NCBI GenBank assembly: GCA_013041925.1
Contig: JABDRB010000006.1
Span: 1 to 64,000, forward strand
Source of the DNA: Akkermansiaceae bacterium
GTDB taxonomy: Bacteria > Verrucomicrobiota > Verrucomicrobiia > Verrucomicrobiales > Akkermansiaceae
Direction of reading: 5' to 3'
DNA length: 64,000 nucleotides
Shown here: piece by piece, positions 51,744 to 53,782 of the stretch
Position numbering within the stretch: position 1 is the first letter of the stretch
How the letters are laid out: each line of letters starts with the position of its first letter
Notes under the pieces: generated by a model
Told to the model about the DNA's origin: nothing
Databases searched by the model: none
The model's input: only the letters and a program-made list of their open reading frames with translations
Translations under genes and position numbers: made by a program

Positions 51744-52571
51744 TTAGCGGGTATTGCCGTTGGAAAAACCAAAATCGCTGGATTCGTTGTAGTGGAGGTG
51801 CTTGTTTTCCTGCTCCCAGCGAGCTTGGCACTGCACGGTGTAACGCGCAAAGGGAACAGCCTCAAGACGTTCTTTGGGTATACGCTCCCCGGACATTTCA
51901 CAGACACCATAAACTCCAGTCTCAGCACGGGTGATCGCTTGTTCAATCTCACTCAGAGAATCCTGCTCCTTGGCGAGGAGATTGAGGGCAAAATCACGGT
52001 CGTAGGAGTCACTTCCAGCATCACCAGTATGCATTCCTCCCCCACCGGACTCCATCCCGTCCGTGTTTTTTAATTGGTCATGGGTCACACCATACATGGC
52101 ATCCAGAAGGCCGTCCCTCAGGTCGAGCAGCTTCTGGTGTTGTTTTTTAGCAAACCCCTTGAGCTTAACGGCCTTTCTCGGCATCGCTTTCCGAGCCGCC
52201 TTTTTCACGACTTTGCTTGCTTCTGTTTTTTGAGCAACCTTCTTCGTTGCCTTTTTGGCCACTTTTTTAGAGACCTTCTTCGCAGCTTTCTTGGTCACCT
52301 TCTTCGCAGCTTTCTTGGTCACCTTCTTGGCAACTTTCTTAGTCGCCTTCTTTGCGACTTTCTTGGTCACCTTCTTGGCAACTTTCTTAGTCACTTTCTT
52401 AGTCACTTTCTTAGTCACTTTCTTGGCGACTTTCTTGGCGACTTTCTTAGTCACTTTCTTAGGTGCCTTGCGCGGAGCTGCTTTCTTAGTGGCCTTTTTA
52501 GCGGCTTTTTTAGCGGTTTTTTTCACTACGCGCGGGGTAACTTTTCGGGTCGATTTCTTTTTCGGAGCCAT
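51744..52571 (-). CDS. Histone H1-like / DksA-TraR fusion protein
   Basis: 275 residues. Residues 1-135 are Lys/Ala/Val/Thr-rich, mostly built of KKVA and KKVT tetrapeptide repeats as in bacterial histone H1-like proteins, likely to bind DNA. Residues 138-275 are a DksA/TraR-type domain: a coiled-coil region (KKQHQKLLDLRDGLLDAMYG) and the zinc-finger region GVYGVCEMSGERIPKERLEAVPFARYTVQCQARWE. The finger is degenerate: C224-x2-S227 and C248-x2-R251, so only two of the four Cys remain. The protein may target RNA polymerase while binding DNA. It is located 144 nt upstream of rpmG. This fusion type occurs in Verrucomicrobiota. Confidence 0.87.
   Translation of the reverse strand: MAPKKKSTRKVTPRVVKKTAKKAAKKATKKAAPRKAPKKVTKKVAKKVAKKVTKKVTKKVTKKVAKKVTKKVAKKATKKVAKKVTKKAAKKVTKKAAKKVSKKVAKKATKKVAQKTEASKVVKKAARKAMPRKAVKLKGFAKKQHQKLLDLRDGLLDAMYGVTHDQLKNTDGMESGGGGMHTGDAGSDSYDRDFALNLLAKEQDSLSEIEQAITRAETGVYGVCEMSGERIPKERLEAVPFARYTVQCQARWEQENKHLHYNESSDFGFSNGNTR
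52233..52520 (-). repeat. Tandem KKVA/KKVT-coding repeats
   Basis: About two dozen 12-nt units coding KKV(T/A) or KKA(T/A) tetrapeptides form residues 18-113 of the H1-like/DksA protein. Sequence similarity among the units suggests slippage or recombination could change copy number. Confidence 0.8.
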
Positions 52572-52747: not shown

Positions 52748-53686
52748 TCAACGCTCTTGGCGCGCATCATACTTTTTTTTCTGAAGTAGCAGCCATGCCT
52801 GGTCGGCATCAGACAACTTTCGGAACGATGTGCTGCCACGTTTACCCTCCGGATCGATTAATGTAATGCTTTCTGGTCGGTACCGGTAGAGTTTGGCAAA
52901 GGTTTTGCGCCCCCCTCTACTCGTCCAAAGCCGGTATCCTCGACGTTCAAGCTTCTCGCGCCATGATCCATAATCCTCTTCAGCCTTGATGACGGCCTGC
53001 TTGATTCTTGCCCAATAATAGTCGTCCGTTCCCTTTTTATAACCTCGGTAGCTGGCCACAGCGGCCCCACGTGGAGAGAGGATCAGCACGGTGGGGTGCC
53101 CGTGTATCGAGTATCGTTTCTTGAGGTTCTCTATAAATTGTCTCTTCCTCGCCCTTAGGTTTTGATCCCGTTCTTTGGCTGGCAGCGCGGTATCCACCCG
53201 CAGGCGAACCAAGCGCCCTGACGCCCATTGTTCGAATTCTAATTTGGAAAACAGCTCGTCACTGAGCTTTCGGCACAGCGGGCTATGCATGGAATCGGTA
53301 AACCAGATCATCATCGGCTTGCCTGATTGGTGGGACTGACGCCGTGCCTCGGTATGACTTGTTTGCCAGGATTTATTTTCTGGGCGTTTCCAAAGCTCCT
53401 CTAAACCTCCTCCCATCGGTTCATCGGGGTTTTCAGAAGCCCATACGATGTCCTCTTCCCGCGTGATTCCTGTGACAGCTGAAGCAGCCCCGAGCCGAGA
53501 GCCACCGGTCACGTTGACCATGGAAGCATCCATGCCCGAGACCCGCCCACCAGCCTGCTGATAAGCACCCAATCCGTAGGCATCTTTCACCGGACTCTTT
53601 GGGGTGACACCGACGATCTCCCCGATCTGGGCACAGGACATCAGAGATAGACTCGCAGCGGCACAGCTCCAACGTTTCCAATGCAT
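52748..53686 (-). CDS. Lipoprotein with thioredoxin-like fold
   Basis: 312 residues from the ATG at 53686, giving a lipoprotein signal peptide with lipobox LMSC (Cys at residue 18). A thioredoxin-like domain lies around 110-230 (KPMMIWFTDSMHSPLCRKLSDELF, GHPTVLILSPRGAAVASYRGY). The usual CxxC is reduced to one Cys (SPLC), so disulfide exchange is doubtful. The C-terminal region is Arg/Lys/Tyr-rich (YRYRPESITLIDPEGKRGSTSFRKL). Probably an envelope protein; role unknown. Its 5' end is next to the divergent yqgE gene. Confidence 0.75.
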   Translation of the reverse strand: MHWKRWSCAAASLSLMSCAQIGEIVGVTPKSPVKDAYGLGAYQQAGGRVSGMDASMVNVTGGSRLGAASAVTGITREEDIVWASENPDEPMGGGLEELWKRPENKSWQTSHTEARRQSHQSGKPMMIWFTDSMHSPLCRKLSDELFSKLEFEQWASGRLVRLRVDTALPAKERDQNLRARKRQFIENLKKRYSIHGHPTVLILSPRGAAVASYRGYKKGTDDYYWARIKQAVIKAEEDYGSWREKLERRGYRLWTSRGGRKTFAKLYRYRPESITLIDPEGKRGSTSFRKLSDADQAWLLLQKKKYDARQER

Positions 53687-53782
53687 ACGTCCATGCTTAA
53701 TGCGGACCGGTGGCTTGGCAACCCGCAAGTTGGAGAAGTTGAGACCGCCCAATAGAAAAAATAGCGCCATCTCCGTCTTGAC

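Follow-up and report, generated by a model that had tools for sequence, protein, structure and literature searches.

Described members of the DksA family differ in their zinc site and in their connection to ppGpp. The DksA of Escherichia coli has a four-cysteine zinc finger. Its contacts with ppGpp are K98, R91, K139, R129, and L95, and the K98A or R129A substitution is reported to abolish ppGpp binding at site 2 (PMC7676912). DksA2 is reported to have two cysteines and to be functional without zinc (PMC9213440). The DksA ortholog of Chlamydia reportedly does not rescue an E. coli dksA mutant (Mandel et al., cited in PMC10995303), and the question of why bacteria without a ppGpp synthetase retain DksA has been raised for this organism (PMC10995303). 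The PVC superphylum has been described as lacking RSH (Atkinson et al. 2011, PMC3153485).

A tailed relative of these proteins is encoded in the window, the whole stretch of 64,000 nucleotides from an Akkermansiaceae bacterium that was analysed. The open reading frame (51744-52571, minus strand) codes for 275 amino acids, and its coordinates are exact, as given by the ORF listing and the translation. The gene combines an N-terminal lysine-rich tail with a DksA/TraR-type domain. The tail covers residues 1-137 (52161-52571, minus strand) and contains 58 lysines, with a net charge of +62 and a pI of about 12. The DksA/TraR-type half runs from about residue 138 to residue 275, and the last 138 residues have a net charge of -7. 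The gene was assigned to the minus strand because of its conserved body and its codon-position pattern. The plus-strand open reading frames over the repeat array are a mirror of the repeat, and a gene on that strand was rejected.

Sequence and structure comparisons place the window protein firmly in the DksA/TraR family. PF01258 matches residues 220-251 (E 1e-9, 38.7 bits against a cut-off of 24.9), the match to the yteA subfamily is below its cut-off, and a Pfam search of the protein gave no match to DksA_N or to the CarD/CdnL domain. Among PDB sequences the best match is 6ptg, entered as "DnaK Suppressor" (E 2.8e-16), followed by 4ijj; the fold library titles give these as the RNA-polymerase-binding protein (DksA) of Chlamydia trachomatis L2 and DksA2 of P. 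aeruginosa. An AF2 model of residues 126-275, made from a 57-row alignment and of moderate confidence (pLDDT 71.5, pTM 0.54), has two long helices that form a coiled coil, a small finger, and a C-terminal helix. On the minus strand, the first predicted helix of the coiled coil comprises residues 140-171 (52059-52154), the predicted tip residues 172-184 (52020-52058), the second helix residues 185-218 (51918-52019), and the C-terminal helix residues 246-263 (51783-51836). The model aligns with 4ijj_B (Z 12.8, rmsd 2.3, 115 residues aligned), 1tjl_A (Z 11.9, rmsd 2.4, 120 aligned), and 6ptg_B (Z 10.5, rmsd 2.5, 86 aligned). The top five structural rows are all DksA, with Z from 12.8 to 10.5, and the best non-DksA row reaches 8.1, helical folds being able to reach middling Z values anyway. 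The PF01258 match and these five rows bear out the DksA-type fold proposed in a preliminary description of this DNA. In E. coli DksA the acidic residues at the coiled-coil tip are D71 and D74. The predicted tip of the window protein ends in H181-x2-D184, with H181 at the D71 place and D184 at the D74 place. Among the 55 relatives with an incomplete finger, the residue at the D184 place is D in 53 and E in the other two.

The distribution of zinc ligands suggests that the finger has been eroded several times within the family. In the window protein the degenerate finger covers residues 220-251 (51819-51914, minus strand), a segment that also holds V239 and Q249. The canonical DksA ligands align to C224, S227, T245, and C248, and the window protein therefore lacks the second and third ligands. 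This alignment agrees with the earlier claim that two of the four ligand cysteines are replaced. The register given for the second pair, C248-x2-R, was wrong; in the alignment T245 falls on the third ligand and C248 on the fourth. Among the long copies in the phylum, the ligand set is incomplete in 55 of 109 and complete in the other 54, and it is incomplete in 36 of the 37 copies of the window's class. On a 137-row tree built without the ligand columns, at least six changes of ligand state occur; long branches leave the deep joins of this tree unsure. The finger had been called half-lost, a term that suggests decay of a single gene; instead, the condition is a long-standing state of the family, with several losses on the tree. 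The window protein itself is likely to lack zinc, as judged from its residues. In three f8 copies (L101-L103) the finger has been lost differently: the first two ligand places are cysteines, the third is D or T, and the fourth is a gap.

The residues that contact ppGpp in E. coli DksA are largely replaced in the window protein. Contact places were set by distance from the first cysteine, in the E. coli DksA numbering of the cysteines and tip. The register was checked on a canonical gammaproteobacterial DksA (L083), which has R, K, R, and K at the R91, K98, R129, and K139 places. In the window protein the R91 place is K, the K98 place is E208 (in the second predicted helix), the R129 place is V239, and the K139 place is Q249. 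The replacements are general among copies with an incomplete finger: of these 55, 54 carry E at K98, 51 carry I, L, or V at R129, and 50 carry Q at K139. All 13 short four-cysteine paralogs of the tree carry K at the K98 place and also at the R129 place. A profile search for RelA_SpoT (PF04607) gave no match in the window's genome, which is 98% complete. The domain was found in 4 of the 115 phylum genomes, three of these over the cut-off, and in 11 of 14 controls. One of the few positives belongs to the window's own family (G018:C3:417410-417763), and this genome would offer a natural comparison for ppGpp input. The window protein is likely to be unresponsive to ppGpp, on the evidence of its contact places and its genome. 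The preliminary description had suggested looking for an effect on ppGpp-dependent genes; such a test finds no support here, and it would be unlikely to work because the contacts are lost and no RelA_SpoT was found.

The tail of the window protein is unusually rich in lysine and is built largely from a short repeat. Its best 40-residue stretch is 50% lysine, compared with 25% for the next open reading frame among 50 non-overlapping ones of at least 100 amino acids in the window. Tandem Repeats Finder (TRF) reports an array at 52234-52462 with a 24-bp unit in 9.5 copies, which can also be read as a 12-bp unit. Counted by register, independently of amino acid content, the array consists of 19 consecutive 12-bp units of the KKVT/KKVA type (residues 38-113; 52233-52460, minus strand). 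Each unit encodes KK[VA][TAS], and as DNA the units fall into 11 distinct sequences. All 118 of the pairwise differences among the lysine codons of the units are at the third codon position; the repeats have thus diverged with lysine preserved. The 12-bp units of the earlier account are confirmed, and tail length differs among relatives. For example, the body of the window protein is 85% identical to that of one relative (L032) without gaps, while the tails are 63% identical with 23 gap positions and are 116 and 139 amino acids long. Among the relatives, the tail evolves faster than the DksA-type body.

In composition, the tail resembles histone H1. A Pfam search of the window protein gave no match to the HC2 or linker-histone profiles, and the tail of a relative (L043) is above the Pfam cut-off for HC2, "Histone H1-like nucleoprotein" (45.5 against 40 bits). 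With this match and the 58 lysines in 137 residues, the H1-like character claimed for the N-terminal half is upheld. A single-sequence fold of the full-length protein has a pLDDT of 57.9, and the helices predicted in its tail are unreliable. The genome encodes a second lysine-rich protein of 113 amino acids (L115, contig C25, 1543-1884), with a KKA/KKS-type stretch and a short C-terminal part. This part presumably resembles DUF2934, and Pfam gave no match to the protein at E 0.1.

Long DksA/TraR-type proteins are found in nearly all of the Verrucomicrobiota genomes searched, and most of them carry a tail. The search profile matches 111 of the 115 phylum genomes. One locus was taken from each of 110 of these, and G182, in which the gene is split over two contigs, was left out. 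Residue counts cover 109 copies, including one at a contig end (L195), and the tail count covers 108, without L195 and without L122, the finger of which was unread by the pattern. A tail was scored when a 40-residue stretch with at least 25% lysine lies ahead of the domain. By this measure 74 of the 108 readable copies are tailed. The tails range from about 40 to about 300 amino acids, with start codons set by rule of thumb, and their repeat words differ. In family f14, 18 of 20 copies are tail-less and two are tailed, and the tail is therefore dispensable in places. A simple coupling between the tail and zinc loss was rejected, as the four-cysteine copies of the phylum are tailed in 29 cases and tail-less in 24. 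Named relatives are mostly from Verrucomicrobiota, including Akkermansiaceae MAGs and Rubritalea profundi, with some from Planctomycetota.

None of the 13 short four-cysteine paralogs in the tree set has a lysine-rich tail. The window's genome has one such tail-less, DksA-like paralog of 116 amino acids (L001, contig C3, 1489-1839), which is a possible zinc-bound partner. The sole GreA/GreB match of the genome lies in a 616-aa open frame (L197, contig C23). This frame recalls the GreA of Chlamydia, which is described as unusually long (PMC10995303).

The genes beside the window gene are conserved among close relatives. The next gene downstream on the same strand is rpmG, for ribosomal protein L33 (51426-51599, minus strand), identified by profile match and locus comparison. 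In 35 of the 42 named Verrucomicrobiota loci (L032-L073, which include near-identical ones) it is downstream on the same strand, where it begins 87 to 402 bases past the end of the matched part. In the phylum draw, rpmG adjoins the gene in all 15 genomes of the window's family and in four others (one f4, one f10, and two f11). An rpmG operon as a phylum-wide trait was rejected, since the adjacency does not extend beyond the window's family and some nearby groups; for this one branch, the adjacency is a mere hint of a connection with ribosome synthesis. On the upstream side, the same strand carries a thioredoxin-like open reading frame (52748-53770, minus strand), found by the same two approaches. 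It is also beside the gene in L032, L033, L035, and L037, and it is absent at a more distant Rubritalea locus (L038). This frame is weakly DsbH-like, scoring 52.4 bits against a cut-off of 190.

Tailed DksA proteins are also present in an order of Gammaproteobacteria, and there the ppGpp contacts are kept. The gene L083 belongs to a gammaproteobacterial MAG and encodes a canonical DksA (DksA_N 122.6 bits) with a lysine-rich tail. It is followed by open reading frames that are presumably gluQ and phaR, and its genome contains a RelA_SpoT domain. DksA_N matches were found in 75 of the 78 genomes of this order, and 68 of the 75 were read (60 loci and eight from the search; L203 is the same gene as L083). 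Among the 68 DksA genes, 47 have a tail by the measure used for the phylum, 61 have an incomplete finger, and 40 have both, while the D71, D74, K98, and R129 places are kept in all 68. The joining of tail and domain in this order is read as independent of that in the phylum because the window protein has no DksA_N match and its ppGpp places differ; the common descent of low-complexity tails cannot be judged from the tails themselves. A general rule that tails take the place of ppGpp was rejected, since this tailed order keeps K98 and R129 throughout and one of its genomes has RelA/SpoT. Another idea is that histone-like tails were joined to DksA-type factors more than once, in Verrucomicrobiota with their relatives and in this gammaproteobacterial order, and that every joining was accompanied by erosion of the finger. 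In the phylum with few ppGpp synthetases, the tail would then take over from ppGpp in making the factor act on promoters, and the input would be chromosome compaction and not an alarmone. This idea is speculative and unlikely. The available part of a paper on Xanthomonas DksA (PMC6804348) makes no mention of a tail.

Overall it is fairly probable that the window protein is a secondary-channel factor that works without zinc, does not sense ppGpp, and is tethered to DNA. From its fold and sequence we infer that it would bind RNA polymerase, lack zinc, bind DNA through its tail, and have an effect on promoters. As judged from the fold, the coiled coil would insert into the secondary channel of RNA polymerase, and transcription initiation would be adjusted. 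The factor would work without zinc because packing of the otherwise kept fold would hold the finger; with its contact residues lost and no synthetase detected in the genome, it would be blind to ppGpp. Points against this reading are the moderate confidence of the model, the H at the D71 place, the lack of an HC2 or linker-histone match for the window protein's own tail, and the tail-less copies of f14. It is conceivable that zinc is instead held by other ligands, either by C224 and C248 with a nearby D, E, or H or between two molecules. The retention of cysteines 1 and 4 in the window protein fits this arrangement. However, the fourth place is not kept among the 55 incomplete-finger copies (A in 27, C in 19, and a gap or another residue in the rest), no histidine was counted at the second, third, or fourth place in them, and alternative ligands are very improbable. 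It is less credible still that the protein is a conventional, ppGpp-dependent DksA of the stringent response, as the suggested test with ppGpp-dependent genes assumed. Its membership in the DksA/TraR family would fit, as would the four-cysteine paralog in the same genome, from a group with K at the K98 and R129 places. Against this are the E, V, and Q at the K98, R129, and K139 places and the lack of a RelA_SpoT match in a genome that is 98% complete.

The tail of this proposed factor would bind DNA electrostatically and without sequence preference, like histone H1 and HC2-type tails, and once bound it would anchor the factor to the nucleoid, close to promoters. It is reasonable to infer such a tether, and DNA, as opposed to another partner, is probably the main partner of the tail. 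The main rival reading keeps the DksA half as proposed and gives the tail polyphosphate, ribosomal RNA, or another polyanion as its partner, or has it drive condensates, so that the factor would be brought to stress granules or ribosome assembly sites. Lysine-rich stretches are reported to bind polyphosphate non-covalently (PMC12077175), and the H1-like KPAA tail of AlgP is described as DNA-binding and also as required for the spacing of polyphosphate granules (PMC9239181). The position of rpmG beside the gene in 35 of the 42 named loci also favors this rival, but that adjacency is not phylum-wide, and a polyanion partner is considered unlikely, if worth keeping in view. The tail might also be a functionless, slippage-prone repeat that is tolerated on a working DksA-type protein. 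In favor of this reading, the array is made of near-identical 12-bp units, relatives differ in the length and order of the tail, and some families are tail-less. Nevertheless, the lysine codons differ only in the third position, 74 of the 108 phylum copies retain a tail rich in lysine despite quite different repeat words, and tails recur in 47 of the 68 gammaproteobacterial genes; a functionless tail is improbable.

If the tail binds DNA, it would make a direct link between the state of the nucleoid and the secondary channel of the polymerase. The family of the window protein also provides relatives outside Chlamydia in which the retention of DksA without a ppGpp synthetase can be tested. The parts are separated naturally in this family, with tails that occur with or without zinc and with or without the ppGpp site, and the gammaproteobacterial set, in which both tail and ppGpp contacts are kept, is a natural comparison. 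Among titles and the beginnings of abstracts in the open-licence literature, no description of a tailed DksA was found, which is weak evidence that none has been published.

The known systems resemble the window protein in different parts. The closest solved relative by sequence is the DksA ortholog of Chlamydia trachomatis (6ptg). Its finger reads C, S, T, and S in the alignment and is eroded like that of the window protein, and its K98, R129, and K139 places, read by eye from the alignment, are Q, I, and Q, likewise non-basic. C. trachomatis is also reported to lack RelA/SpoT (PMC5811630). In contrast to the window protein, 6ptg has 132 amino acids as deposited, too short for a tail of this type. 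Because the Chlamydia ortholog reportedly fails to complement in E. coli, the promoter effect of the window protein may differ as well. The best fold match is P. aeruginosa DksA2 (4ijj, Z 12.8), with two cysteines and reportedly no zinc (PMC9213440), like the two-cysteine site of the window protein. DksA2 differs in being a tail-less chain of 136 amino acids, and its expression is limited to zinc starvation, when it stands in for a zinc-bound paralog, whereas the window-type long form is near-ubiquitous in its phylum. E. coli DksA (1tjl, 5vsw, and 7khi) shares the fold (Z 11.6-11.9) and the tip acid D74, and it differs in its four-cysteine zinc finger, in its ppGpp contacts K98, R129, and K139, and in having no tail. 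The lysine-rich tails of chlamydial HC2 (PF07382), AlgP, and PhaF have a basic repeat composition like that of the window tail, but they are not fused to a DksA domain. The proposed layout resembles that of CarD from Myxococcus xanthus, which is described as having an RNA-polymerase-binding domain and an intrinsically unfolded, basic, DNA-binding tail (PMC4182748). CarD has an unrelated polymerase-binding domain, of the CarD family, and its tail is C-terminal and HMGA-like, so the similarity is one of working and not of family membership. It shows that a polymerase-binding domain and a basic DNA-binding tail have been joined in evolution before.
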